Source: a virus. From it: DNA of 43,910 bases. The DNA lies in IMG/VR virus record IMGVR_UViG_3300011445_000036, positions 1-43,910 of that record; one strand, given 5' to 3'. The position numbers and the translations under genes are program-made. Under the pieces are notes generated by a model. It was not told the origin of the DNA, searched no databases, and worked only from the letters and a program-made list of their open reading frames with translations. Positions 7,465-33,374 of the stretch are shown here, one piece after another (position 1 is the first letter of the stretch; every line of letters starts with the position of its first letter).

Positions 7465-7640
7465 TAAGATTTTACTTCCACAACATCATTTAATAAATCA
7501 ATAGGGTACCAGGATGGCACTTCAGCTAGTCCGTTAATAACTTTACTGGATATAACTTCTCTTTTTATTAAACCAGTAGGACTGTCAACTAAGTCTATAA
7601 AAGTCTCATAGTCTCGATTCGATTTAATATAATAAGTCAT
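7464..7640 (-). CDS. Hypothetical protein, 58 aa
   Basis: A 58-residue frame that starts at an ATG overlapping the small-terminase stop (TAATG) and ends on the start of the next gene. The sequence begins MTYYIKSNRDYETFIDLVD and includes a WYPIDLLNDVVEV segment near the C-terminus, like small phage proteins with a compact beta-alpha fold. The start/stop overlaps on both sides support it as a gene. Function unknown. Confidence 0.6.
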   Translation of the reverse strand: MTYYIKSNRDYETFIDLVDSPTGLIKREVISSKVINGLAEVPSWYPIDLLNDVVEVKS

Positions 7641-8143
7641 TATTTAACCTCTTCACTAGTGGAATCAACAATATTTAACGTTGGTTCTAAATGTCGTAAA
7701 CGTTTAATCTCATCATCTAACTGTTCTTTCGTTAGAGATGAAGTAGCATCAATGTTAATGTGTAAAGACTCACTTCTATGTTGGTATTCTTTAGGAAATC
7801 TGGATTTCATCATAAATTCTATCATTGCAGCAGAGCCTTTAATTTTGCCCGTTGCTACATCTTCAGCTATCTTTTCCCAAGTAGCCTGAGCATATATTTC
7901 TCCTAATTCATCTGCTTCTCTAAAATCTGGGTATTCTCTACAATATCTGTAATAAGTGTCTTTTACAATTCCTAACACAGCCATTACTTGTGTTTTACTT
8001 TTACCTTCCATCCGATATGATAATGCAGTATAAGCCATTTCAGGTTTATACTCTGGAGGTCTTCCTAATCGCATAGGAAATTTAGTAGGTATTATCTCTC
8101 CTTCAATACCTACTTGTGACATTTCTTTACCTACTTGTGACAT
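7640..8143 (-). CDS. Terminase small subunit (DNA recognition)
   Basis: 167 residues. After a polar N-terminus, the segment LGRPPEYKPEMAYTALSYRMEGKSKTQVMAVLGIVKDTYYRYCREYPDF contains a helix-turn-helix (SKTQVMAVLGIVKDTYYRYC), followed by ADELGEIYAQATWEKIAEDVATG, a pattern typical of phage small terminases. It would bind the packaging start site and deliver DNA to TerL. Two start codons are possible because a 16-base direct repeat duplicates ATGTCACAAGTAGGTA at residues 1 and 8. The outer ATG is used here. The SD signal is weak (AGAG). Confidence 0.75.
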   Translation of the reverse strand: MSQVGKEMSQVGIEGEIIPTKFPMRLGRPPEYKPEMAYTALSYRMEGKSKTQVMAVLGIVKDTYYRYCREYPDFREADELGEIYAQATWEKIAEDVATGKIKGSAAMIEFMMKSRFPKEYQHRSESLHINIDATSSLTKEQLDDEIKRLRHLEPTLNIVDSTSEEVK

Positions 8144-8192: not shown

Positions 8193-8267
8193 TGGTGGCA
8201 GCGATTGGATTTGCACCAATGACCTTCAGGTTATGAGCCTGCTAATCTACTACTGATCTACGCTGCT
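8193..8267 (-). tRNA. tRNA-Met, anticodon CAT, with encoded CCA
   Basis: Reading the minus strand gives a full cloverleaf: acceptor AGCAGCG/CGCTGCC, D-stem GATC/GATT, anticodon stem GCAGG/CCTGA around the loop CTCATAA (anticodon CAT), T-stem ATTGG/CCAAT with loop TGCAAAT, and ACCA at the end. Position 1-72 is an A-C mismatch. The anticodon stem lacks the three G-C pairs of initiators, so it is elongator Met, or Ile2 if its C34 is lysidine-modified. The T-loop reads TGC rather than the usual TTC. Its 5' end overlaps the stop of the HNH gene. Confidence 0.85.
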
Positions 8268-8596
8268 TTAATTCTGCGTTGTTGTGTAATAATACGGTGG
8301 CAATTAGCACATCTTATTTCACATTTAGCTATTTCTTCTTTAATTCGTTTTAAAGAATTACTATCCCGCACAAGAGTACTTATATCTTTTATTTTAATAC
8401 CTTTTACATGATCAAATTCTAATACTCTAATATCATTATTACCACAATCAATACATTGAGAATTTCTTAATATATTTTCTCTATATTGTTTATTTCTTAC
8501 AATAATTGCTTTATTTAAAGCTCGAACTTTATCTTTATTCTTGTAATAATATCTGTTACTAGCTTTTGCTTGATCTTTTTTATTTTTGTAAGGCAC
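8258..8596 (-). CDS. HNH homing endonuclease
   Basis: 112 residues from a GTG at 8596 preceded by AGGTG; a TTG three bases further out is the alternative. The basic N-terminus is followed by CIDCG, LEFDHVKG (the HNH-type DH pair), and CEIRCANCHRIIT, so four Cys residues form a zinc site and His/Asp/His the active site. This is the common free-standing phage HNH type. The reading frame ends in CGTAG, which is also part of the tRNA acceptor and D-arm, so gene and tRNA overlap by 10 bases. Confidence 0.88.
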   Translation of the reverse strand: MPYKNKKDQAKASNRYYYKNKDKVRALNKAIIVRNKQYRENILRNSQCIDCGNNDIRVLEFDHVKGIKIKDISTLVRDSNSLKRIKEEIAKCEIRCANCHRIITQQRRIKAA

Positions 8597-8599
8597 CAA

Positions 8600-8985
8600 G
8601 ACACCTCGTATTCTACTATTAAACTAACCCGCGATAGCTATATCCCTTGGAGCGGATATTTTAATAATTATCCCTTGTAGAGGATAGGGGGTGAGAGATG
8701 GGGGTGGTTACCCATAGCCTCCCGATACAAGTCGGGGCTCTACGTATACGCCTTTCTGTTATCACATTTGCCCATCGATAACTCTAAGGTTGGAGCTACT
8801 CTCACCATTCTTATAAAAAGTGCTAGTATTTACCGGTAAGAGTCTATTATCGACGACCCTGGGCTACTAGCTGGCCATTCTTAATTCGCGAATAGCGAAT
8901 AGTTATTTTTACTAGATTTTAGGAGCCTGTGGCTCGTGTATTGAGCGTTTCATCATTTATAGCCCACGGCTCTAGTAACCTTGTT
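8600..8985 (-). ncRNA. Highly structured non-coding region between promoter 8990-9018 and the HNH gene
   Basis: About 390 bases with no credible ORF but many nested pairings. ACTAGA/TCTAGT (8911-8916 with 8971-8976) encloses GAGCC/GGCTC. ATTCGC/GCGAAT is a hairpin at about 8885. GCTAGTA/TACTAGC pair at 8822-8828 and 8865-8871. GGTGAGAG/CTCTCACC (8690-8697 with 8799-8806) closes a multi-branch domain holding ATGGG/CCCAT, CCCGA/TCGGG and GTTATC/GATAAC. Two tandem hairpins with the same TATCC/GGATA stem lie at 8640-8659 and 8669-8686. A sigma-70 promoter points into it on the minus strand. It may be an untranslated leader or a free RNA. The end point is uncertain. Confidence 0.5.
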
Positions 8986-8989
8986 TATT

Positions 8990-9018
8990 ATATTAACACT
9001 TTCTTAAGTACCTGTCAA
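8990..9018 (-). promoter_or_regulatory. Sigma-70 promoter, minus strand
   Basis: The minus strand reads TTGACA (9018-9013), a 17-base spacer, then TAATAT (8995-8990). Predicted start is near 8983, just before the structured region 8600-8985 and upstream of the HNH gene, the tRNA and the packaging genes. Confidence 0.65.
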
Positions 9019-9044
9019 GTGTTATTTTCAATATATTTTAATAT

Positions 9045-9227
9045 TTATATTCCACCAGAAGATGCTGAGAACTTAATCCCGGTCATAATCGCGGGATGGG
9101 TACTAAAAGTAGGTTTATAAGTTAATTTTTCAGCACAAACTTCACAATTTGCTTCTACATCTTTGTTTTTTATCAATAATTCGATGGTTTTATCACATTT
9201 CTTACAAAAAAAGTCTAAAATAGGCAT
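9045..9227 (-). CDS. FmdB-type small zinc ribbon protein
   Basis: 60 residues starting MPILDFFCKKC, the hallmark N-terminus of FmdB/zinc-ribbon-8 proteins (MPIYEYxCxxC). Cys8, Cys11, Cys28 and Cys31 form two CxxC knuckles. The ATG at 9227 is chosen over a GTG at 9245 because it gives the family's standard start and leaves the promoter -10 box outside the gene. The predicted transcription start (about 9229) is almost at the ATG, so the mRNA may be leaderless or come from a promoter further upstream. Role unknown, probably regulatory or nucleic-acid binding. Confidence 0.72.
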   Translation of the reverse strand: MPILDFFCKKCDKTIELLIKNKDVEANCEVCAEKLTYKPTFSTHPAIMTGIKFSASSGGI

Positions 9228-9235
9228 AAATTCTC

Positions 9236-9264
9236 TATATAACACACTTCAAAAGGAAAGTCAA
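9236..9264 (-). promoter_or_regulatory. Sigma-70 promoter upstream of the zinc ribbon gene
   Basis: The minus strand reads TTGACT (9264-9259), a 17-base spacer, then TATATA (9241-9236). It would start transcription near 9229, at the ATG of the zinc ribbon gene. Confidence 0.55.
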
Positions 9265-9339
9265 ATCCGCAACTCTTTTGGGTTGTAATAGAATTACTTG
9301 TTTAACAGGGATAGTAAATTAAAAACAAAAAGATTTATA

Positions 9340-9438
9340 TATTATATATGGATCGCAGAGTATGATAGCGATCCCATAGCGGCCTTTAGCCCTTTATGCT
9401 TTCACTTGGGGTTTCAGCATAGGGCTATATGCCGCTTT
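9340..9438 (-). ncRNA. Candidate small RNA with two strong hairpins
   Basis: A perfect consensus promoter (9445-9473) places the start near 9438. The transcript would fold at once into a long hairpin: AGCGGC/GCCGCT (9431-9436 with 9378-9383) outside, AGCCCT/AGGGCT and ATGC/GCAT inside, with a 17-base loop (9400-9416). A second hairpin GGATCGC/GCGATCC (9368-9374 with 9350-9356) follows, then AT-rich sequence with U-runs further on. No ORF of note is present. The 3' end is a guess because the second hairpin lacks an immediate U-tract. Confidence 0.55.
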
Positions 9439-9444
9439 AAATGT

Positions 9445-9473
9445 ATTATACACAGTCTTAAAAAAGATGTCAA
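9445..9473 (-). promoter_or_regulatory. Perfect-consensus sigma-70 promoter, minus strand
   Basis: The minus strand reads TTGACA (9473-9468), exactly 17 bases, TATAAT (9450-9445). All 12 hexamer positions match consensus. No coding gene follows for about 200 bases, but a strongly paired RNA does. Confidence 0.8.
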
Positions 9474-9560
9474 GCATTATTTTAAAATAAGTACTAAATG
9501 TTACCGTTAGGGATGTTTTCAGGACTTAAAAGAGCTTTTTTATGGATATATTCCCGATCA

Positions 9561-9860
9561 GGAACTTAACGCGCATAGCGCGAGGGTTGTGACCCACAAG
9601 TCAACCCGAGCGTTCCAATTTTTTATATATGATTTAGTGTCCTGCTAAAAAGGACATATGAGTATGATGTAGAGCCACCGAGAGTGGTTGCCCACTTACC
9701 CCGGTGGTTACACATCTCATCATGGCACTCCGTTGGGAGTGGGTAGCGGATTTAGGGCTACCTGTGAGATTAATTGCTCCCTGTTGGGAGCCTCTAGAAT
9801 ACCCCGTTCCTTCTGGTAGGGGACAGCTTTGCTGGTACTTCTTCCGCCACATGGGACGGT
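9561..9860 (-). ncRNA. Candidate structured RNA downstream of promoter 9867-9895
   Basis: Locally GC-rich and packed with hairpins on the minus strand: CAGC/GCTG, CCCC/GGGG, GGCTCCC/GGGAGC (about 9776-9791), GGTAGC/GCTACC (9742-9762), CACTCC/GGAGTG (9726-9741), a long arm ATGATGT...ACATC plus CCACCG/CGGTGG with an inner AGTGG/CCACT and GCAA loop (9664-9723), TGTCCT/AGGACA near 9640-9655, and a three-way junction closed by GGAAC/GTTCC (9561-9616) holding GGGTTG/CAACCC and GCGC/GCGC. Two hairpins share the CTCCCAAC motif. It could be one long RNA or several. The 3' end is unknown. Confidence 0.5.
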
Positions 9861-9866
9861 AAGTTA

Positions 9867-9895
9867 ATTATAATATAGGGATTAAATTTAGTCAA
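9867..9895 (-). promoter_or_regulatory. Sigma-70 promoter, minus strand
   Basis: The minus strand reads TTGACT (9895-9890), 17 bases, TATAAT (9872-9867); 11 of 12 hexamer positions match consensus. Predicted start is near 9860, directly at the structured segment 9561-9860. Confidence 0.72.
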
Positions 9896-9976
9896 TAGTG
9901 ATTATCTAAATATAGTCATTTGATTGCATGGATAATTGAATGGATAGGTTTTGAAAAAAGTTCCTTCCCGCCAGGA

Positions 9977-10033
9977 AATCGGCTCTATTTTATAGGGAAA
10001 CATGAGCCGATTAATGAGCCTAATTGGCTCATT
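9977..10033. other. Two adjacent perfect hairpins sharing the same core
   Basis: AATCGGCTC (9977-9985) pairs with GAGCCGATT (10004-10012), and directly next to it AATGAGCC (10013-10020) pairs with GGCTCATT (10026-10033). The GGCTC/GAGCC cores are interchangeable, so alternative pairings between the two hairpins are possible. No U-tract follows on either strand, so they do not look like terminators. Strand of action unknown. Confidence 0.5.
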
Positions 10034-10850
10034 ATTAGAGGTAGTTTCTTCTTAAGTTAAATTAGTCAATATACTGACTGAATTTGTAAGTCCTTGTTTT
10101 AAAAAGAGATTCTGTAGGGGAATGAGTATACCTATATATACTCGCCAAATAATCTTTTGCCCCCACCCCCTCGACAGCCGAAGGCATTAATCTAAGCCTA
10201 ATGATGTAAATATAAGGCTGAGTATGCAAGGCGCCAGCTATATTCGTAGTAATAGTACGAAAATATGGGTTATAACAGCCATAGAGGCCTATAGAAGCGA
10301 CGATCTCTATCATGGTAGTAGAGGGATATAGGGTATAATGTACTACGCGTAATTTGAAATGTATTAAAGAGAAGGAGAATGGAAGGAAATAATACTAATA
10401 TATCTATATCTGAATACTAGATACAAGCGCAATCTTATGTATAAACAAGTAACAACTAATGGTATAACTTATTGATTATTCAAATAAATAGAGATTATTA
10501 GACTTATTAGGATGTAACATATTGTTTAGTATTACTATTTCAACCAAACGTATAATGATATCTGATGACCTCTGATAAGATGTATGAACCCTCGCGGTTG
10601 AATACTGGAAGTCCTGTTACCAAATTACAAGGATACTGTCTTAATCATCCGAACTGGGTACTAGTGAGGTGTTGATCGTCGTTAAGTATAGTCTGTTTAT
10701 TAAGTGATTATTAAGAGTTAAAAATAAAATTTGAATATAGGATATTGTCTAGCGTTGCTAGTCTTTATTAAGGATATATTATAATAAAGGATATGCCTAT
10801 TTTCTTTATTATAAGTTTTAATAAAACCTTAAGGTAAATCGTGAATAAAT
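10034..10850. other. Long gap without a convincing gene
   Basis: About 800 AT-rich bases. I see scattered hairpins (GAGTATA/TATACTC near 10115-10140, TTCGTA/TACGAA near 10235-10260, CTAGC/GCTAG near 10755, ATAATAAAG/CTTTATTAT near 10780-10812). There is a TATAAT at 10334 with no good -35, and a 13-codon ORF at 10379 with AAGGAG very close to its ATG. Possible ORFs here have unconvincing composition. The stretch separates the divergent late (minus) and early (plus) arms, so it may hold regulatory or origin functions, but nothing specific can be assigned. Confidence 0.4.
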
Positions 10851-10855
10851 AGTAT

Positions 10856-10883
10856 TTGACAGATTTAATAGATATGCTATAAC
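10856..10883 (+). promoter_or_regulatory. Sigma-70 promoter of the rightward early operon
   Basis: TTGACA (10856-10861), a 16-base spacer, TATAAC (10878-10883), followed 7 bases later by AAGGAGAG and the ATG at 10903. It is the first promoter in front of the plus-strand gene block. Confidence 0.7.
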
Positions 10884-10902: not shown

Positions 10903-11160
10903 ATGTTAAGATACTTAGTCATATATAAAGGTCACTGTGTCGGATGCTATATCCAGTTGGTCTTTAAAGGTTATGTAGGGGCATTAGTCATATGCCCTTC
11001 GATAGGGGTAAAATGGGTCATAAGAAAGATAGTATTAGTTGCCAGTGATACAGTCTTTGAAGCTTTAAAATTACCTCATTTAGGTAAAAGAAGAGATAGA
11101 GATTTAGCAATAGAAGCTATTAGTTATAAGACATTATATAATAGATTTATAGGAGAATAA
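10903..11160 (+). CDS. Hypothetical early protein, 85 aa
   Basis: 85 residues, first gene of the rightward operon, with a strong ribosome site (AAGGAGAG) and its own promoter just upstream. The N-terminal half is hydrophobic and beta-like (MLRYLVIYKGHCVGCYIQLVFKG, with a CxxC), the C-terminal half basic and helical. No known domain. First-transcribed small phage proteins often act on the host, but nothing here shows a target. Confidence 0.65.
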   Translation: MLRYLVIYKGHCVGCYIQLVFKGYVGALVICPSIGVKWVIRKIVLVASDTVFEALKLPHLGKRRDRDLAIEAISYKTLYNRFIGE

Positions 11161-12348: not shown

Positions 12349-12548
12349 GTATTAATAAGAAATTACATGTATTATATCATAAGTATTTACGATTGTCAAA
12401 AGAAGAAAAAAAAGAATATTGGCTCTTAGATGTGACTGGTGGTATACTAATAGGAGCAGGATTAGTAGCAAGTAATGGGTTTATGGTATTATGGGGAGTA
12501 ATAGTTGTTTATGTTGGTTATAGATTTTTAAATGAATCACATAAATAG
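12345..12548 (+). CDS. Small membrane protein, 67 aa
   Basis: 67 residues: a charged N-terminal half (HKYLRLSKEEKKEYW) and a hydrophobic C-terminal half that could span the membrane twice (TGGILIGAGLVASNGFMVLWGVIVVYVGYRF). Coupled to the gene before it. Function unknown. Confidence 0.55.
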   Translation: MSINKKLHVLYHKYLRLSKEEKKEYWLLDVTGGILIGAGLVASNGFMVLWGVIVVYVGYRFLNESHK

Positions 12549-12556
12549 GAGACTTT

Positions 12557-13513
12557 ATGAAATTCTTTACACCCAAACAGATTTATGAAGAATTAAATAA
12601 GTCTGTTATTGGACAACATGAAGCTAAATTATTGTTATCAAATGTTGGTATGATGATACAACAACGTTTTTATCAAAAATATCTGACATTTGGTAAACAA
12701 GTTCCAATGATTCATAAGACTGTTACTTTGTTAGCAGGCGATAGTGGTACAGGTAAAACTACTATTGTTAGAACCTTAGCTAAAATCATAAATGCACCTC
12801 TATTAGAAATTAATACCAATACGTTATCAGCAGAGGGTTGGCACGGAGAAAATCTATCTGATTTATTAAAAAAGTTTATTAAAACTAAAGCCAATCCTGA
12901 AGATTTAGCAGAAACCCCTGAAGGAACTGTTACAAGAACCATTGTATTCTTAGATGAATTTGATAAGGTTTTAATTGATTTACATGATTCAAATCAAGGT
13001 GCACATAATCGCGCTATATTAAATAACTTTCTTAAAGTTGTTGAGGATTGTTCAGCAATGGGTGATTTTAATTGGATTCTTGGCGGGTCATTTAATATTC
13101 ATAGACAAGAACTTAAAGAACCTAGTAAAACCATTGGGTTTAATAAGCTTACCGAAATGTCAGAAAAAGAATTTAATAAAGAATTCTTGATTGAAAAAGG
13201 ATTGCCTGAAGAACTTGCTGGTCGGATCACGGGTTTAGCTGAACTTAAAAAGCTTACTAAAGTTGATTTAATTAACATACTTAAATTACCATATGGCTAT
13301 ATTAATCAATATAAACAATTAGCATTACAATTTAATATGCAATTTGAAGTAACAGAGGCTTTATTAGATAGTATTGCAGATGAAGTATTAAATTCATCTC
13401 AAGGTGCAAGAGCTTTACAAGATGTAATTTATAAACATTTCGAAGTACAATTATTTAACTTGGAGTTTAAAGAAGATGAGCACAAAGAAGAGTCATACTT
13501 GCCTACTCGTTGA
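12557..13513 (+). CDS. ClpX/HslU-like AAA+ unfoldase
   Basis: 318 residues. The family start FTPKQIYEELNKSVIGQHEAK corresponds to ClpX/HslU '...VIGQ..AK'. Walker A is GDSGTGKT (61-68). The pore-loop region SAEGWHGENL corresponds to ClpX 'TEAGYVGEDV'. Walker B is IVFLDEFDKV (129-138). An arginine-finger/sensor region (ELAGRITGLAELKKLT) and sensor 2 (GARALQDVI) follow. It lacks the ClpX zinc domain and has no room for the HslU I-domain between the Walker motifs, so it is a minimal core. The next gene, overlapping by 38 bases, encodes an HslV-like peptidase, so the two likely form an ATP-dependent protease. Confidence 0.85.
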   Translation: MKFFTPKQIYEELNKSVIGQHEAKLLLSNVGMMIQQRFYQKYLTFGKQVPMIHKTVTLLAGDSGTGKTTIVRTLAKIINAPLLEINTNTLSAEGWHGENLSDLLKKFIKTKANPEDLAETPEGTVTRTIVFLDEFDKVLIDLHDSNQGAHNRAILNNFLKVVEDCSAMGDFNWILGGSFNIHRQELKEPSKTIGFNKLTEMSEKEFNKEFLIEKGLPEELAGRITGLAELKKLTKVDLINILKLPYGYINQYKQLALQFNMQFEVTEALLDSIADEVLNSSQGARALQDVIYKHFEVQLFNLEFKEDEHKEESYLPTR

Positions 13514-14105
13514 TCGTAGTCCAGCAGGCAAATTAATATTTGCTTCTGACAGACGACAAAGTTGGGGTATGCATTTAGCTCAAAAAACTCCACGTCCTAA
13601 GACTGTTAAACGTCATGGTATTGTATTTGCAGGTACAGGTGATAGTTATATTTGTGATTTAATATGTGAATTATTACCTATTCCAAAGCAAAGAAAGACT
13701 GAAAGTGCTTTTGATTTTGCGCATGGAGCATTATGGGAATCTGTTATACGATTATTAGATAAAAAAGGTTTATTAGATGAAAAACAATTTTGTTTACCAA
13801 GAGAATATAAATTTAGTGAAGCAATTATTTTAATAGGTATACAACAAACATTATTTGAATTAGAGATTTCTAAACGTGGTATATCAATGGGTATAATTGA
13901 TACTCCATATGCTCATGGGTGTGGAGGAGCATATGCTTTAGGGGCATTAATTGCATTTAAAGATTATAATTGTTTTCCACATCATATAGTGCGGTTTATT
14001 CCCCAAGAACATGAATTAATTAGTAAAATGAAATTAGCTGTACAAATTGCAGGTAACTTAAGTCCAGGTTGTGATGAGGAAGTAGACATAGTAAAAGGTG
14101 ACTAA
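13476..14105 (+). CDS. HslV/proteasome-beta-like Ntn hydrolase
   Basis: 209 residues matching the proteasome-beta/HslV pattern: TCLLVDRS at residues 8-15, then KLIFASDRRQS (Asp25 in the place of the catalytic-site Asp17), PKTVKRHGIVFAGTGD (Lys42 or Lys45 as Lys33), GCGGAYALGALIA (148-160), and KMKLAVQIAGNLSPGCDEEVDIV near the end. The best candidate for the nucleophilic Thr is Thr8, so seven residues would have to be removed. HslV normally exposes Thr after Met alone. The gene overlaps the ClpX/HslU-like gene by 38 bases, so they are probably co-translated partners. The peptidase assignment is good; activity is unproven. Confidence 0.78.
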   Translation: MSTKKSHTCLLVDRSPAGKLIFASDRRQSWGMHLAQKTPRPKTVKRHGIVFAGTGDSYICDLICELLPIPKQRKTESAFDFAHGALWESVIRLLDKKGLLDEKQFCLPREYKFSEAIILIGIQQTLFELEISKRGISMGIIDTPYAHGCGGAYALGALIAFKDYNCFPHHIVRFIPQEHELISKMKLAVQIAGNLSPGCDEEVDIVKGD

Positions 14106-22961: not shown

Positions 22962-24911
22962 ATGAATTTAGGGGAAGTACTAAAAGCAGATGTTTCTAAG
23001 CAGCGTGCTAAAGAGATGTCTGTTAATGAATACTTGGAACTAATTAAAACTAATAAGGAAGTCTTATTATCACCTGCGGGTAGATTACTTAAAGCTATTG
23101 GTGAGCCTGAGTTAGTTGATACATCAAAAGATCCTCGTTTAAGTCGTATATTTTCTAATCGTATTATTAAACGTTATGCTGTATTTGACGACTTCTTCGG
23201 CATAGAAGAAGCTATTGAACGTATTGTTGACTTCTTAAAACATTCAGAACAAGGTTTAGAAGAATCTAAACAAGTATTGTATTTATTAGGTGCCGTAGGT
23301 ACGGCTAAGTCTTCATTAGCGGATAGGCTTAAACAATTAATGGAAAAAGAACCATTCTATACCGTGGCCTTTATTGATGCTAAAGGGAGAGTCGTTCAAT
23401 CTCCGGTATTAGATCATCCATTATCGTTATTTGCTTCTATTGATGCAAAAAACGCATTAAAAAAACAATTTGGTGTCTTAGATCAACATTTCAGAGTACC
23501 TCCATCTGGATGGTTAATTAAACGTATTCAAGAAGTTGAAGGCGATTTAACAAGATTTAAAGTATTAAAATTACATCCCTCTAATCACCTACAGCGTGCT
23601 ATTGGTAGAACAGAAGCCGGGGATGAAAATACCCAAGATGTCTCTATTCTGGTTGGTAAAATGGATATTCGTAAATTAGAATTGTTTGCTCAGAACGATC
23701 CTGATTCCTATTTATATAGTGGCATGCTATGTAAAGCTAACCAAGGTATCGGTGAATTCGTAGAAATGTTTAAAGCATCTCTGCCAGTCCTTAATCCATT
23801 GCTGACCGCTACTCAAGAACATAAATATCAAGGTACCGAACCTATTGGCGAGTTACCGTTTGATGGTGTAATTCTTGCGCATAGTAATGAATCTGAATGG
23901 CAGAAATTTAAGAATTCTAAAACTAATGAAGCTATTTTAGATCGTATTTATTTGGTAAAAGTACCGTATAACTTACGACCAACTGAAGAAGTACAGATTT
24001 ATCGTAAACTTCTTAATAATTCATTATTAAAAGATTCACCTGTTGCGCCTCGTACATTGAAAATGCTAGCTGATTTCTGTGTACAAAGTCGTATGATTAA
24101 TAATGAACACGTTAATACGATGACGAAATTACGTGTTTATGATGGTGAGAATGTTAAAGAAAAAGATGCTCGGGCTAAGCCTTTGTTAGAATATAAACAA
24201 ATGGCAGGGCTGGATGAAGGTATGGATGGTCTAGGTACGCGATTTGCATTTAAAGTGTTATCTAAAACCTTTAACTACGACCTAACTGAAGTTGCTGCTA
24301 ATCCTGTGCACCTATTGCACGTGCTAGATAAACATGTTAAAGCTGAACAATTTTCTAAAGATAAAGAGGCCTCTTTATTAAGTTTTATTGAAAGTGAACT
24401 TAAACCTCAATATACTGAATTCTTAACTAAAGAGATTCAAACGGCATATATTGAATCTTATAGTGAATATGGTCAAAATGCCTTCGACCAATACATTAAG
24501 TTAGCTGAATTGTGGTTAGCAGATGAAGACTTTGTGAATCATGATACCGGCACAATCATGAATCGATTAGCTATTGATAAAGAGTTAGATAAAATTGAGC
24601 GACCTGCTGGGATTATTAATCATAAGGATTTTAGACAAGAAGTGGTCACTTTCTGTTTAAGACATAGGGCTTCTAATAGTAATCAAAACCCCAAATGGAC
24701 TGCTTATGAAAAGCTTAAAGAAGTTATTGAGAAAAAACTCTTTAATTCTGCTGAAGATTTATTGCCTGTCATTAGTTTTGGTGCTAAAAAATCAGAAGAT
24801 GATGCTAAAAAACATAAAGCTTTTGTGGATAGAATGGTTGACTTGGGCTATACTGAGAAACAAGTGAGATTACTTGTTGAATACTATCAACGTGTTCGTA
24901 GGAGTGAATAA
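22962..24911 (+). CDS. prkA: PrkA-family serine protein kinase / AAA protein
   Basis: 649 residues, full length compared with E. coli YeaG (about 644). The family segments are all present: SVNEYLELIKTNKEVLLSPAGRLLKAIGEPE at the N-terminus, YAVFDDFFGIEEAIERIVDFLKHSEQG, Walker A as GAVGTAKSS (110-118), PPSGWLIKRIQEVEGD, and DRIYLVKVPYNLRPTEEVQIY in the AAA core, plus the C-terminal kinase-like region ending VRRSE. In bacteria PrkA acts with YeaH and SpoVR/YcgB in starvation and stationary-phase responses. Here yeaH and spoVR homologues follow in the same operon. Walker A has Ala-Val and Thr-Ala where bacterial proteins usually have Pro-Val-Gly-Gly. Confidence 0.93.
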   Translation: MNLGEVLKADVSKQRAKEMSVNEYLELIKTNKEVLLSPAGRLLKAIGEPELVDTSKDPRLSRIFSNRIIKRYAVFDDFFGIEEAIERIVDFLKHSEQGLEESKQVLYLLGAVGTAKSSLADRLKQLMEKEPFYTVAFIDAKGRVVQSPVLDHPLSLFASIDAKNALKKQFGVLDQHFRVPPSGWLIKRIQEVEGDLTRFKVLKLHPSNHLQRAIGRTEAGDENTQDVSILVGKMDIRKLELFAQNDPDSYLYSGMLCKANQGIGEFVEMFKASLPVLNPLLTATQEHKYQGTEPIGELPFDGVILAHSNESEWQKFKNSKTNEAILDRIYLVKVPYNLRPTEEVQIYRKLLNNSLLKDSPVAPRTLKMLADFCVQSRMINNEHVNTMTKLRVYDGENVKEKDARAKPLLEYKQMAGLDEGMDGLGTRFAFKVLSKTFNYDLTEVAANPVHLLHVLDKHVKAEQFSKDKEASLLSFIESELKPQYTEFLTKEIQTAYIESYSEYGQNAFDQYIKLAELWLADEDFVNHDTGTIMNRLAIDKELDKIERPAGIINHKDFRQEVVTFCLRHRASNSNQNPKWTAYEKLKEVIEKKLFNSAEDLLPVISFGAKKSEDDAKKHKAFVDRMVDLGYTEKQVRLLVEYYQRVRRSE

Positions 24912-25558: not shown

Positions 25559-26800
25559 ATGGCTATTATTAATCGTAGTAAACAACAGCAAAACAAAGCC
25601 GCTGGCAATCGTCAACGGTTCTTAGATCGATATAATCGACAAATCCAAAAGAAACTTAAAGATTATTTTAAACGTAAATCTATTACTGATACAGGTAATG
25701 GTCAACATACTATTACTATAGATAAAAATGACGTAGGCGAACCAACATTTAATAATAATCCGCATACAGGCACTAAACCTCGGATATTTCCTGGTAATAA
25801 ATCCTATTCCAAAGGTGATTGGATTCAATCACCTGACGGTTCAGGTGGCGATGGAAAAGGCAATAAAGGTCATGGTGGAACAGATTCTGAAGATGATTTT
25901 TTATTTCATTTAAATCGTGAAGAATTTATGCAATATTTGTTTAAAGATTTAGAATTACCGGATTATATTTTAAAACAATTAGTTGAATCCGAAGACTGGA
26001 AATATAAAAAGAAAGGGATTGTTCGACATGGCTTACCTAATTCGGTGCATGTAATTAAATCCCTAGAAGCAGCAAATATGCGTAAGATAGCATCAAGAGC
26101 TGCGTTAGAGGCCGAAATTGCTTTATTAGATCCTGAGAATGATAAAGATAAGATTGAAGAATTAAAGAAACAAAAAGATAAAATTCCTTGGATTGATGAT
26201 TTTGATTTACGATATAAAACCTTAGTTAAAGATCCTGTGCCTATAAGTAAAGCTGTAATGGTCTTATTATTAGATGTATCAAGTTCTATTACTGAAAAGA
26301 TGAAAGATCGTGCTAAACGATTCTTTTATCTAGTCTATTTATTTTTAACTACTCAATATCGTCATGTTGATATAGTCTTTTTAATTCATACTACTAATTG
26401 TATCGAAGTCACCGAAGAAGAGTTTTTTAATACGAGAGTTACTGGTGGGACAGAATTTCTTAATTCATTTGAAAAAGTAGAAGAAATCTTAACATCTCGA
26501 TATGATACACAGTCTTGGAATGTTTATTTAACTCAAGTTTCGGATGGGGACGTAAGTTTTGAAGACGGTACGAAAAGTGCTATCTTTTTAAATGATAAAC
26601 TATTACCAATAATCCAATTTTATGCTTATTGTAATGTAACCATGGATGATGTAGTTACATTTGGAGTTTGGTATGGCTATATACGAAAACTATTGTTACA
26701 TACTGCAAATGATAAAAAAGCAAGATTTTGTATATTAGATTCAAATAAAAGTGTCTTTAGAGCACTTGAAGATTTATTTAAACATAATTTAGCGGACTAA
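25559..26800 (+). CDS. YeaH/YhbH-family protein (DUF444, von Willebrand A-like)
   Basis: 413 residues, close in length to E. coli YeaH (427). NRQRFLDRYNRQI near the N-terminus, a Gly-rich linker (SGGDGKGNKGHGG, about 95-107), FLFHLNREEFMQYLFKDLELP, and a VWA-type metal site DVSSS (239-243) in AVMVLLLDVSSSITEKMKDRAKRFFYL. Then HTTNCIEVTEEEFF, VTGGTEF, QVSDGD and LLPIIQFYAYCNV follow the family in order. YeaH homologues are genetic partners of PrkA. The gene is preceded by the structured leader and an AAGGAG site. Confidence 0.93.
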   Translation: MAIINRSKQQQNKAAGNRQRFLDRYNRQIQKKLKDYFKRKSITDTGNGQHTITIDKNDVGEPTFNNNPHTGTKPRIFPGNKSYSKGDWIQSPDGSGGDGKGNKGHGGTDSEDDFLFHLNREEFMQYLFKDLELPDYILKQLVESEDWKYKKKGIVRHGLPNSVHVIKSLEAANMRKIASRAALEAEIALLDPENDKDKIEELKKQKDKIPWIDDFDLRYKTLVKDPVPISKAVMVLLLDVSSSITEKMKDRAKRFFYLVYLFLTTQYRHVDIVFLIHTTNCIEVTEEEFFNTRVTGGTEFLNSFEKVEEILTSRYDTQSWNVYLTQVSDGDVSFEDGTKSAIFLNDKLLPIIQFYAYCNVTMDDVVTFGVWYGYIRKLLLHTANDKKARFCILDSNKSVFRALEDLFKHNLAD

Positions 26801-26805
26801 TTACT

Positions 26806-27546
26806 ATGTTAATTAAATCAGGATTACCATGTCCGAATTGTACTTCATCCGATGCTTTGGCTAAGTATGAAAATGGTACTTATTGTTTCTCTTGTAAATA
26901 CTCTACATTAGAAATTATTAAAACATTAAAAAATCAGAATCAAGAGAATTTAACATTAACACCCAACCAAGCCGACTGGGTTTCTTTAGATTCACATAAA
27001 CATATTTCTGCCTATACGTTCTTAAAATCTTATCATATAAATCAACAACTTATCGATAAATACCAACTCATGTGGTCTCCTCAGACGAATCGATTAGTAT
27101 TGCCGTTTATTTATAAAACTAAATGTGTAGGGGGACAATTACGTTCACTCGACAAACGTCCCATGAGAAAATATTTAAATGTTGGAGATACCGGAATATG
27201 GAATCCTAATAACTTATTAGCGACTATAGTCGCTAACTGGGCAATGACGACTATAGTCGTCGTAGAAGATATTATCTCTGCTATACGAATTAATGAAATC
27301 TTACCAGCCGTTGCTTTATGCGGCACTAAAACAGATAATTCTACTAAGGAAACCTTAAGGAAACTAGGTAAAACAATTATTTTATGGTTAGATTCTGATA
27401 TTCCGGGACAAAATGCTTGCAAAAAGTTAAAATGTAGTTTACAATTAACTAATGATGTAAAAGTAATAAAAACTGAATTAGATCCGAAATGTTATAAAAA
27501 GGCAGATTTAGAATCTTATTTAATTGCTGCTACTGTAGGTAAATAA
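26806..27546 (+). CDS. DNA primase, zinc-binding plus Toprim domain
   Basis: 246 residues. The zinc-binding domain has CPNC (9-12) and CFSC (27-30), like T7 gp4 primase. The Toprim core has VVVEDIISAIR (Glu154) and ILWLDSDIPGQ (Asp196, Asp198). The middle segment RLVLPFIYKTKCVGGQLRSLD is the typical RNA polymerase-type strand pair. It would make primers for the DnaB-like helicase/PolA replisome. It sits between the yeaH and spoVR homologues and overlaps spoVR by one base. Confidence 0.87.
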   Translation: MLIKSGLPCPNCTSSDALAKYENGTYCFSCKYSTLEIIKTLKNQNQENLTLTPNQADWVSLDSHKHISAYTFLKSYHINQQLIDKYQLMWSPQTNRLVLPFIYKTKCVGGQLRSLDKRPMRKYLNVGDTGIWNPNNLLATIVANWAMTTIVVVEDIISAIRINEILPAVALCGTKTDNSTKETLRKLGKTIILWLDSDIPGQNACKKLKCSLQLTNDVKVIKTELDPKCYKKADLESYLIAATVGK

Positions 27547-29066
27547 TGACATTATTATATACTTCTGAAGAATGGTCAGAAGAGATTATTGAGAACTTAT
27601 GGGATGCCGTAGAAGAACGCGGTAAGTTTTATGGTCTTAATTATTATCCTCCTCAAATAGAAATTATTTCTGCTACTCAAATGTTAGATAATTATAGTTC
27701 TCATGGTTTACCTGTTATTTATGACCATTGGAGTTTTGGTAAATCTTTTATTGCTAATCAACAAGCATATGAAAAAGGTTATCAGGGATTAGCGTTTGAA
27801 ATTGTTATTAATACTAATCCTAGTATTTGTTATATTATGGAATCAAATACTACGACTATGCAATTATTGGTGCTCGCTCATGCAGCAATAGGTCATAGTA
27901 CTTTCTTTAAAAACAACTACTTATTTAAAGAATGGACGGATGCTTCAACAATTATTGAATTCTGTCTCTATGCCAAACGATTTATTAAGAAATGTGAACA
28001 ATTATACGGACGTCAATTAGTAGAATCTACTTTAGACAGTGCCCATTCATTACAATATTTTGGTGTTGATAAATATAAACGTGTTCATACGAAAACAAAA
28101 AAACAACAAAAAGAATATAATGAACGATTGGTAGACGAAAAACGTAAATTAGTTCATGAATTATACAAAGATGAATTAAGTCATGTTACTAATCCACCAG
28201 ACTTAGATGTCTATGAAACTGAGTTAGAGGTGGGTGCGTATTATACTAATGAAGCCGATCCAGATGAAAATTTATTAGAGTTTTTAAAACAAAAATCAAC
28301 AATTTTACGTCCTTGGCAGAAAGAGGTTATTAATATAATACAATATCTAGCTCAATATTTTTATCCTCAAATGCAAACTCAAGTTACTAATGAAGGTTTT
28401 GCGACCTTTTGGCATTATACAATAATGACTGATTTATATGATATGGGGAAAATCTCTGAAAGTTCTTATCTTCAATTTTTACATAGCCATAGTTCAGTGA
28501 TTTATCAACCCGCTGCATTTCATTATAGTAATTATTATAAACAATCCTTTCCTAACCGTCATTATTCAGGAATTAATCCGTATGCGTTAGGTTTTGCTAT
28601 TTATCGAGATATTCGGAGAATCTGTGAGAACCCTACTGATGAAGATAAAAAGTTGTTTCCTAATTTAATTGGTAAAAACTGGTTAGATGAAGTTAAATAT
28701 GCTATGGAGAATTTTAATGATTCAGGTTTTATACTTCAGTATCTGTCGCCTAAAGTAGTTCGAGATTTACAATTAATGGTTACTTCTGCCGCTGTGCCAC
28801 AAGCGATGTATGGTTCAAATGTGGTAGAAGTCACGCAAGTACATGATGATAATGACTTTTTAATGATTAGAAAACAATTATCTGAAAATTATAATTTGAC
28901 AAATCGCTTACCACAAATTATAATTAAAGAGAGTCGAGAACCGGCGCATAGAGTAACATTACAACATTTAAAAACTTACGATCAAGAATTAGATGTCAAG
29001 TCTGCAATGGATACAATCCATAAATTTAAGTTTTTATGGGGCAAAGGTGAAGTTAGTTTACATTAA
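27546..29066 (+). CDS. spoVR: SpoVR/YcgB-family protein
   Basis: 506 residues against about 510 for E. coli YcgB. Hallmark blocks: IYDHWSFGKSF (58-68), GLAFEIVINTNPSICYIMESNTTTMQLLVLAHAAIGHSTFFKNNYLF (81-127, with His112 and His117), LRPWQKEVINIIQYLAQYFYPQMQTQVTNEGFATFWHY, NPYALGFAIYRDI, and VTLQHLKTYDQELD near the end. Family members act with PrkA and YeaH in bacterial stress physiology; their biochemical activity is not settled. The glutamates and histidines in the central block could bind metal. Confidence 0.93.
   Translation: MTLLYTSEEWSEEIIENLWDAVEERGKFYGLNYYPPQIEIISATQMLDNYSSHGLPVIYDHWSFGKSFIANQQAYEKGYQGLAFEIVINTNPSICYIMESNTTTMQLLVLAHAAIGHSTFFKNNYLFKEWTDASTIIEFCLYAKRFIKKCEQLYGRQLVESTLDSAHSLQYFGVDKYKRVHTKTKKQQKEYNERLVDEKRKLVHELYKDELSHVTNPPDLDVYETELEVGAYYTNEADPDENLLEFLKQKSTILRPWQKEVINIIQYLAQYFYPQMQTQVTNEGFATFWHYTIMTDLYDMGKISESSYLQFLHSHSSVIYQPAAFHYSNYYKQSFPNRHYSGINPYALGFAIYRDIRRICENPTDEDKKLFPNLIGKNWLDEVKYAMENFNDSGFILQYLSPKVVRDLQLMVTSAAVPQAMYGSNVVEVTQVHDDNDFLMIRKQLSENYNLTNRLPQIIIKESREPAHRVTLQHLKTYDQELDVKSAMDTIHKFKFLWGKGEVSLH
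28896..28924 (+). promoter_or_regulatory. Perfect-consensus sigma-70 promoter inside spoVR
   Basis: TTGACA (28896-28901), exactly 17 bases, TATAAT (28919-28924); all 12 hexamer positions match. It would give extra transcripts of the SSB-like and exonuclease genes, which start at 29082 and 29652. Confidence 0.62.
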
Positions 29067-31687: not shown

Positions 31688-32467
31688 ATGACTAATGTAT
31701 TTAAAAATATACAAAAACAACTAAAAAAGGATAAATCCTTATTATTTTGGGATATTGAAACTAGTCCTATGTTGTTATGGGGCTTCTCTTTGGGTGAGAA
31801 TCACATTGGTCATGAGCAAATAGAAAAAGAATCGAAGGTTATTACAATACAATGGATGTTTGAAGGGGATAAACATGTATCGTATTTAACTTGGGATGAG
31901 AATCAAGATGATAAAACCATGCTTAAAGATTTCTCGAAAGTCCTAGACACTGCTAAGATTGCTATTAGTCAGAATGGTAGGGAATTCGATCATAAAGTCT
32001 TAAGATGGCGTATGAATGTCCATCAATTACCGCCCTTAAAGAATGTACAAATATTAGATACTTATCAACTCTCTAAATCTGCATTTAAACCTGCTTGTCA
32101 TAAATTAGATTATAAATCAAAGGTGTATGGTGTTGGTGGTAAAATACCGATGAAAATGCAAGATTGGATTAATGTTGTTAAGAAAGTCCCCGGTGCATTA
32201 GAAAAGATGATTAAATATGGCTGTAAAGACGTTCCTGACCTTAGAACCATGTTTTGGAGAGAACTCCCTCATTACCCTAGATTACCTGTATCTTTAGCTA
32301 GATTAGTGTTTCCTGCTGATAAAGTGAAGGATATTAGGGAATTTTGTCCAAAATGTGCTGTAAAACGTACACGTAAATTTGACATTGTACCTACCACCAT
32401 CTATAATAAAGCTATGTTCAAATGTATTAATTGTAGTCATACATGGGTAGATAATAGGAGAATATAA
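31688..32467 (+). CDS. DnaQ/RNase H-like 3'-5' exonuclease with zinc ribbon
   Basis: 259 residues. LLFWDIETSPMLLWGFSLG (Asp22, Glu24) is the first exonuclease motif; ISQNGREFDHKVLRWR the second; YGCKDVPDLRTMF the third. The C-terminus carries a zinc ribbon with CPKC (220-223) and CINC (246-249) before HTWVDNRRI. This combination resembles YprB-type RNase H-like nucleases with an added DNA or RNA-binding finger. Its 3' end is partly duplicated about 270 bases downstream. Confidence 0.75.
   Translation: MTNVFKNIQKQLKKDKSLLFWDIETSPMLLWGFSLGENHIGHEQIEKESKVITIQWMFEGDKHVSYLTWDENQDDKTMLKDFSKVLDTAKIAISQNGREFDHKVLRWRMNVHQLPPLKNVQILDTYQLSKSAFKPACHKLDYKSKVYGVGGKIPMKMQDWINVVKKVPGALEKMIKYGCKDVPDLRTMFWRELPHYPRLPVSLARLVFPADKVKDIREFCPKCAVKRTRKFDIVPTTIYNKAMFKCINCSHTWVDNRRI
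32379..32407 (+). promoter_or_regulatory. Perfect-consensus sigma-70 promoter inside the DnaQ-like gene
   Basis: TTGACA (32379-32384), exactly 17 bases, TATAAT (32402-32407), near the 3' end of the exonuclease gene. It would transcribe the small-gene block and the ClpP-like/SbmA-like genes to the right. Confidence 0.6.
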
Positions 32468-32667
32468 TGAAATCTGATACGAAGGAGGTGCTATGGGTAT
32501 TCGCTGGCTGTTTGTTTCTAGCCAGTATAATGGGTATCGTCATATATTCAACACCTGCGACAAAACAAGCAGTTATTTATTGTGGCTCTTTGGGCAGGGT
32601 GACTATGCAATATACTGGGACACTAGAAGTTTCTGAACATTGTAAAGTGTTAGTACAGGAGAAATAA
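32467..32667 (+). CDS. Membrane or exported small protein, 66 aa
   Basis: 66 residues: a charged N-terminus, a hydrophobic helix (VLWVFAGCLFLASIMGIVIY, which contains Cys15), then a polar domain with two further Cys residues. Could be membrane-anchored with a periplasmic part. Function unknown. Confidence 0.52.
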   Translation: MKSDTKEVLWVFAGCLFLASIMGIVIYSTPATKQAVIYCGSLGRVTMQYTGTLEVSEHCKVLVQEK

Positions 32668-32668
32668 G

Positions 32669-32722
32669 ATGACTTTAAGAGCAGAAACAATATTGTTAGC
32701 CCTAGAGGCCATACGTGGATAG
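32669..32722 (+). other. Very short ORF, 17 aa, at the duplicated tail
   Basis: ATG at 32669 with AGGAG upstream encodes MTLRAETILLALEAIRG and stops at 32722, inside the second repeat copy. It is probably the start of a small gene cut short by the duplication. Evidence for it being functional is weak. Confidence 0.3.
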
Positions 32723-32738
32723 ATAGTAGGAGAATATA

Positions 32739-32927
32739 ATGACTTCCAGAGATCGAGAGATACAATTAGCTTTGGCTGCTGGACATATACCTTTTAGCAC
32801 GTTTAAACGCTCAACACCTATTCAACGTGGTGGTAAAGTGTATACAGATTTATTAGCTAAGATGTGGACTACTGATTCTTGGGATGAATTAATTAGATTA
32901 CATAAGCAAATGCATGAGGTTACTTAA
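32739..32927 (+). CDS. Hypothetical protein, 62 aa
   Basis: 62 residues: DREIQLALAAGHIPFSTFKRSTPIQRGGKVYTDLLAKMWTTDSWDELIRLH. The beginning resembles small phage proteins with an 'A.G.IPFSTFK' segment, but no named family is certain. Ribosome site AGGAGAA comes from the repeat. Function unknown. Confidence 0.55.
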   Translation: MTSRDREIQLALAAGHIPFSTFKRSTPIQRGGKVYTDLLAKMWTTDSWDELIRLHKQMHEVT

Positions 32928-33121
32928 TGTATATTTGTGTGATATGTAAACAACCAATGGTTTATGAACGTAAAGCGTTTGATCCTGTGCCTTTGTGTGA
33001 ATATTTTCGGAAACAATTTGAGGCACATACACAAATAGAATGTGATAATCGATTATTGATTCAAAAACGAAACTGGCACACTTTACGAGACTGGTTGGGT
33101 CTCTTTAGGAGAACTGGATGA
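32927..33121 (+). CDS. Zinc-binding-type hypothetical protein, 64 aa
   Basis: 64 residues: CVICKQP at 4-10, then PLCEYFRKQF and ECDNRLL give further Cys/His candidates for a zinc site. Basic C-terminal half with Trp residues. Shares the TAATG overlap with the upstream gene. Function unknown. Confidence 0.52.
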   Translation: MYICVICKQPMVYERKAFDPVPLCEYFRKQFEAHTQIECDNRLLIQKRNWHTLRDWLGLFRRTG

Positions 33122-33186
33122 TTGAAGTAGTTATTATATTGGTAGCCGTCTTAATGTTAATAGCCATTAATCTGGATAAATCATAA
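33118..33186 (+). CDS. Tiny membrane peptide, 22 aa
   Basis: 22 residues, a single hydrophobic helix (MIEVVIILVAVLMLIAIN) with a DKS tail. Overlaps both neighbours (ATGA before, TAATG after), which is the main support. Confidence 0.4.
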   Translation: MIEVVIILVAVLMLIAINLDKS

Positions 33187-33374
33187 TGAGTACAAGAAAT
33201 TCAACAATAGAACAATGGGAAGTTGCCGATCAAGTACTTGATTATTTGACTAATGATGGTAAAATATCTCCTGTTGAGAAGAAGAATATTAAGGCTAGAT
33301 TAGGAACATTGATTAATGATTTTTATGAATTTGAATCTACATTAGATAAATTAAGAGAATTGGCAAATCTATGA
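33186..33374 (+). CDS. Hypothetical acidic helical protein, 62 aa
   Basis: 62 residues, helical and acidic (EQWEVADQVLDYLTNDGKISPVEKKNIKARLGTLINDFYEFESTLDKL). The DYLTNDGKIS segment looks like an EF-hand-type loop but without the full ligand set. Function unknown. Confidence 0.52.
   Translation: MSTRNSTIEQWEVADQVLDYLTNDGKISPVEKKNIKARLGTLINDFYEFESTLDKLRELANL

Follow-up and report, generated by a model that had tools for sequence, protein, structure and literature searches.

Tandem sigma-70 promoters and predicted folded leaders in front of the packaging genes of an uncultured podovirus-like phage: a candidate late-operon control region

Organisation of the divergent region

The window, i.e. 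the whole stretch of DNA analysed here, is a virus record of 43,910 bases. It belongs to an uncultured podovirus-like phage of an unstudied lineage, since its TerL is at most about 52% identical to other sequences when near-identical fragments are set aside. The genes fall into two arms. Rightward genes extend from 10903 to about 36.2 kb and include the replication proteins (helicase, primase, polymerase, exonuclease). Leftward genes run from 8143 down to 1 and from 43458 down to 36222 and include terminase, portal and, as their order and size suggest, structural genes. No terminal repeat was found on the contig, and if the genome were drawn as a circle the two blocks of leftward genes would join. 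Neither an RNA polymerase nor a late activator was recognised among the genes of the phage.

Two gene sets within the rightward arm were observed in passing. Homologues of PrkA, DUF444 (YeaH) and SpoVR, which form a bacterial stress operon set, lie among the replication genes (22962-24911, 25559-26800 and 27546-29066). An AAA ATPase that has a ClpB D2-small domain and, after it, a peptidase of the HslV family (phrog_1040) are encoded at 12557-14105, which suggests a viral HslUV-like protease pair; both proteins are also present in the relative L082.

Where the rightward early genes and the leftward packaging/late operon diverge, an intergenic region (8600-10855) separates them. A previous sequence-only reading had described 8600-9895 as nearly gene-free. 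This stretch is gene-poor indeed, but its extent was set too short, as the gene-poor sequence continues to about 10855. The features of the region and its left flank are, from right to left:

10856-10883, plus strand: early promoter, TTGACA-16-TATAAC (11/12), from the promoter scan, opposing the late promoters
9867-9895, minus strand: P1, predicted sigma-70 promoter, TTGACT-17-TATAAT (11/12), from a simple scan; start expected near 9860
9530-9862, minus strand: RNA1, candidate structured non-coding RNA or leader, from folding z, GC and codon statistics
9445-9473, minus strand: P2, predicted sigma-70 promoter, TTGACA-17-TATAAT (12/12), from the simple scan; start expected near 9438
9350-9438, minus strand: RNA2, two adjacent hairpins, from fold prediction (z -6.28)
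9236-9264, minus strand: weak promoter-like site, TTGACT-17-TATATA (9/12), absent from the list of the simple scan
9045-9227, minus strand: 60-aa zinc-ribbon protein resembling Zn_ribbon_8 (Pfam E 5e-7)
8990-9018, minus strand: P3, putative sigma-70 promoter, TTGACA-17-TAATAT (10/12) with extended -10 TG, from the simple scan
8600-8985, minus strand: RNA3, untranslated leader ahead of the HNH gene, assessed by fold z
8258-8599, minus strand: small HNH endonuclease gene with TTG or GTG start (phrog_2255, E 4e-22)
8193-8267, minus strand: tRNA-Met gene, anticodon CAT, CCA encoded (Rfam tRNA match)
7640-8143, minus strand: terminase small subunit, the first packaging gene downstream (phrog_309, E 5e-12)

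Read leftward, the order is thus promoter, folded RNA, promoter, folded RNA, zinc-ribbon gene, promoter, leader, HNH gene, tRNA and terminase small subunit. On the opposite side the early promoter forms the right border of the gene-free region, and the first rightward ORF follows at 10903. The terminase gene bears out the earlier placement of the region upstream of the packaging operon. That the presumed RNAs lie next to a tRNA gene applies with a restriction: the tRNA-Met gene is present, but the HNH gene, whose end overlaps it by 10 bases, separates the third leader from it. The zinc ribbon of 60 residues, also proposed earlier, matches Zn_ribbon_8 at the E-value listed above, but with 30.1 bits it stays under the curated cut-off of 34.4; its gene has a GC3 of 0.25 and a positive codon score.

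Promoters and folded sequences

Four minus-strand sigma-70 promoters had been proposed for this region. To obtain the chance expectation we counted minus-strand sites in 500 versions of 8600-10855 shuffled with dinucleotides preserved. A single one of the 500 shuffles held two or more sites of at least 11/12, and none held a 12/12 site; in a second chance test, in which both strands were counted, P1 and P2 together had a probability of about 0.002. As sequence matches P1 and P2 are far beyond chance, P2 being the one full-consensus promoter that had been described. P3 shares the spacer of 17 bases with both of them and is, given its sequence, a plausible real promoter. These three sites (9895, 9473 and 9018) were confirmed, but the fourth, 9264-9236, was not above background: it lacks the T at the sixth position of its -10 element (TATATA, a poor -10), and for sites of at least 9/12 on the minus strand 8 were observed compared to 4.2 in the shuffles. 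By sequence such a site is indistinguishable from background, where sites of this kind are common by chance. It could serve as promoter of the zinc-ribbon gene.

Over the whole window 4 sigma-70 sites of 12/12 were found where 0.07 were expected, such that this phage appears to use consensus sigma-70 promoters generally. A 12/12 promoter lies antisense within the early genes (12371-12399, minus strand) and is directed back at the gene-free region. The 12/12 promoter at 32379 with the apparent gap at 32468-33370 was considered as a further RNA and rejected: the stretch encodes several small proteins and is without structure signal.

The sequence following P1 has a GC content of 48% compared to 34% for the genome. 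Its first 263 nt (9862-9600) fold with -88.1 kcal/mol and a z of -3.77, which becomes -4.14 upon extension to 9480. In the predicted shape a long, bulged hairpin at about 9722-9660 is accompanied by several others. RNA1 is probably non-coding, because the longest ORF inside it (72 codons, 9634-9852) has a GC3 of 0.47, compared to 0.11-0.25 in genes, as well as a negative in-frame codon score, and no Shine-Dalgarno sequence is visible ahead of it.

The strongest folding was found behind P2. The 94 nt following it (9438-9345) have a minimum free energy of -41.6 kcal/mol and a z of -6.28. The predicted first hairpin consists of a long imperfect stem with a base of 6 bp and an upper stem of 12 pairs; after a linker of 3 nt a stem of 7 bp with a loop of 11 nt follows. 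Pairing starts at about +3 of the expected transcript and ends at about +89. Few helices cross the expected starts, which rank among the lowest 4.5% (RNA1), 9% (RNA2) and 7% (RNA3) of positions, a scarcity owed in part to the AT-rich promoters; in RNA1 and RNA2 pairing sets in at about +1 to +3. For RNA3 (8985-8600) the z of the whole is -1.48 and that of the first 121 nt alone -2.54, such that it is a weak candidate for a structured RNA. The earlier claim of strongly paired sequence behind three of the promoters hence holds for RNA1 and RNA2 but fails for full-length RNA3. For two of the units the folding, codon and promoter statistics support a structured RNA without coding function downstream of a strong promoter on the same strand. 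The RNAs appear unrelated to each other in as far as no pairwise alignment among RNA1, RNA2 and RNA3 rose above shuffles. The 9-mer ATCATACTC, common to RNA1, RNA2 and the distant relative L007, was rejected as a shared element, its occurrence being within chance.

If the strong promoters were real and the folds without function, the intergenic sequence would be neutral or in decay. Elsewhere in the genome, genes included, there are further windows with z below -3, and no relative shows conservation of these sequences. RNA2, at a z of -6.3, and the series of low values over 9600-9870 stand out, however: in a genome-wide scan of 120-nt folds on the minus strand the latter has a mean z of -3.2 compared to -0.29 overall. 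We consider neutral sequence quite improbable.

The opposite strands fold as well, with a z of -3.59 for RNA1 and -4.19 for RNA2. This would be expected if the inverted repeats acted as DNA elements, i.e. as a replication origin, a packaging or cleavage site or a genome-end region, where the HNH protein might aid the terminase. The site lies where the early and late arms diverge and the cumulative GC skew reaches its minimum, additional palindromes are present at 9961-10080, and the HNH gene adjoins the terminase small subunit. The skew may, however, merely track the gene direction, no iteron array was found in this region of the window, and RNA2 folds clearly better on the minus strand (-6.3) than on the plus strand. 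The single DnaA-box match (TTATACACA, 9446-9454, plus strand) overlaps the -10 element of P2 and is by estimate at about chance level. A role as DNA element is in our view unlikely.

Terminators and relatives

The sequence-only reading had taken the region as an array of separately transcribed RNAs. In strict as well as relaxed scans of the minus strand from 9900 to 8150 no intrinsic terminator (hairpin and U-tract) was found on the way from the promoters to the terminase operon, so that beyond the presence of several promoters nothing speaks for separate transcription. The simplest reading is that of tandem promoters with leaders that feed one leftward transcript. Rho-dependent terminators could separate the units. 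Between the early promoter and P1, at 9961-10080, strong hairpins occur on both strands (z about -4); one of them, the TAATGAGCC/GGCTCATTA hairpin, may terminate antisense transcripts.

Alternatively RNA1, RNA2 and perhaps RNA3 would be stable small RNAs in their own right, produced early in infection and directed in trans at targets of the host or the phage. The near-consensus promoters should need no activator and would, by their sequence, provide RNA1 and RNA2 each with a start of its own. The folds are compact and very stable, RNA2 foremost, they form GC-rich islands within an AT-rich genome, and they carry no coding signal. A tRNA gene is nearby, as for other large phage RNAs: GOLLD and ROOL are large structured non-coding RNAs of phages that are often found near tRNA genes (PMC12286853). 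Unlike these, the candidate RNAs of the window are several and short (90-340 nt), have internal promoters as a group and give no match to Rfam even at E 5. None of the units is followed by an intrinsic terminator of its own on the minus strand, the U-run near 9330 being located about 20 nt beyond the last RNA2 hairpin, and no homologue was found in the collections searched. Small RNAs acting in trans are possible but doubtful.

Relatives were sought via TerL, a TerL alignment, the AAA ATPase, the portal and L007. Near-identical fragments turned up (L001 ends at 8586 and L002 at 6706), but they do not reach the region; among all other sequences TerL identity across the greater part of the protein did not exceed about 52%. 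In the distant relative L007 (TerL 48% identical) a gene-free region of about 2.5 kb (313-2805) occupies the same place as in the window. It carries two promoters on the late-operon strand, at 1830 (11/12) and 1991 (12/12), which exceed chance (1 of 500 shuffles) and are followed downstream by a tRNA-Leu at 2473 and then by the terminase genes. Its leaders show no significant folding (z of -1.75 and -1.09) and could not be aligned with the RNAs of the window. The layout recurs in this single relative, and most other relatives are without it. In L180 and L181, closer kin of L007, a non-coding stretch of unrelated sequence precedes the late genes, and within the sequence that their contigs contain no promoter of at least 10/12 was found.

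Some further observations concern these relatives. The gene-free region of L007 contains repeated GGTGCAATT motifs at 540-650, which are iteron-like and possibly mark an origin. A match to the abiF RNA in L007 was dismissed, being under the gathering score. L180 carries between its late leader genes a duplication of 162 bases (1422-1583 and 1613-1774, 88% identical), apparently inside short hydrophobic ORFs.

A search against Rfam, which the sequence-only reading had suggested as a check, returned at gathering score (Rfam 15) the tRNA only and no match for the RNAs; upon relaxing to E 5 the tRNA and one chance-level sRNA were obtained. Neither megablast nor blastn gave anything meaningful, be it with the region against phages or with RNA2 against plasmids. 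Motifs of RNA1 and RNA2, scanned as exact patterns through IMG/VR, gave 8, 0 and 45 matches, all of which were due to chance according to flanks and fold. In nhmmer searches over 97 loci RNA1, RNA2 and RNA3 had no match, and covariance models built for RNA2 and for the core of RNA1, run over 1.08 Mb of the relatives' loci, recovered the window itself only. No homologous sequence thus emerged that could be aligned with the RNAs and inspected for compensating changes in the helices. The Rfam and homologue searches neither refute nor support the structured-RNA reading.

A possible control region of the late operon

Consensus promoters are expected to fire on entry of the phage DNA. Late genes, which here would amount to some 16 kb, usually need a delay or help for their transcription; a folded 5' leader is a natural place for such control. 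We tentatively propose, with a probability of roughly 45%, that the region controls the leftward late operon and is built from tandem promoters with folded untranslated leaders. The computed basis of this proposal is the strength and orientation of the promoters, the folds of RNA1 and RNA2, the lack of intrinsic terminators, the location before the packaging genes and the layout of L007. Transcription by the host RNA polymerase, carrying the main sigma factor, would start at P1, P2 and probably P3. Transcripts from P1 and P2 would begin with 90-340 untranslated nt that fold while emerging, and would then cross the zinc-ribbon and HNH genes as well as the tRNA before reaching the terminase genes. 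Both the starts at the predicted promoters with the subsequent read-through and the action of the folded 5' ends in cis are what we infer from this arrangement. Against a late leader stand the folding of RNA1 (z -3.59) and RNA2 (z -4.19) on the opposite strand as well, the unstructured and unalignable leaders of L007 and the lack of a promoter of at least 10/12 in the available sequence of L180 and L181.

In phage lambda the strong sigma-70 late promoter pR' is followed by an untranslated leader (6S RNA) before the late genes. A strong sigma-70 promoter with an untranslated leader before late genes is present in the window as well, where, in contrast to lambda, no intrinsic terminator lies behind the leader and several promoters take the place of one. 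No protein resembling Q, on which antitermination in lambda depends (PMC6606751), was found among the window proteins scanned.

A likeness in layout is offered by the putL RNA of phage HK022. This RNA of about 70 nt forms two stem-loops, is paired from nucleotide 3, lies just downstream of a sigma-70 promoter and renders RNA polymerase resistant to terminators (PMC9378689). RNA2 likewise would form two adjacent stem-loops from about +3 behind a sigma-70 promoter at the head of a phage operon. It differs from putL and putR in that it precedes late instead of early genes and in its length of about 87 nt compared to about 70. We located the put elements in NC_002166 through their mutual similarity. 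While putL and putR match each other, local alignment of RNA2 with either of them was no better than with shuffles. Because the layout matches but the sequence does not, RNA2 is not filed as a put element, although by analogy it may work like one. The likeliest role of RNA2 would be to protect the transcript or to make the polymerase resistant to pausing or termination in the manner of HK022 putL, where simple protection of the 5' end fits equally well as a put-like action. It would be a long shot for RNA2, and perhaps RNA1, to represent a new protein-independent class of nascent RNAs that antiterminate or modify the polymerase for late genes, as an analogue of put with unrelated sequence.

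If the leaders act in cis, the late genes would be controlled through the RNA itself, in a phage without recognised RNA polymerase or late activator. Control through RNA of this kind is so far known mainly from put elements. If RNA1 and RNA2 are instead independent RNAs, they would add to the orphan RNAs of phages.
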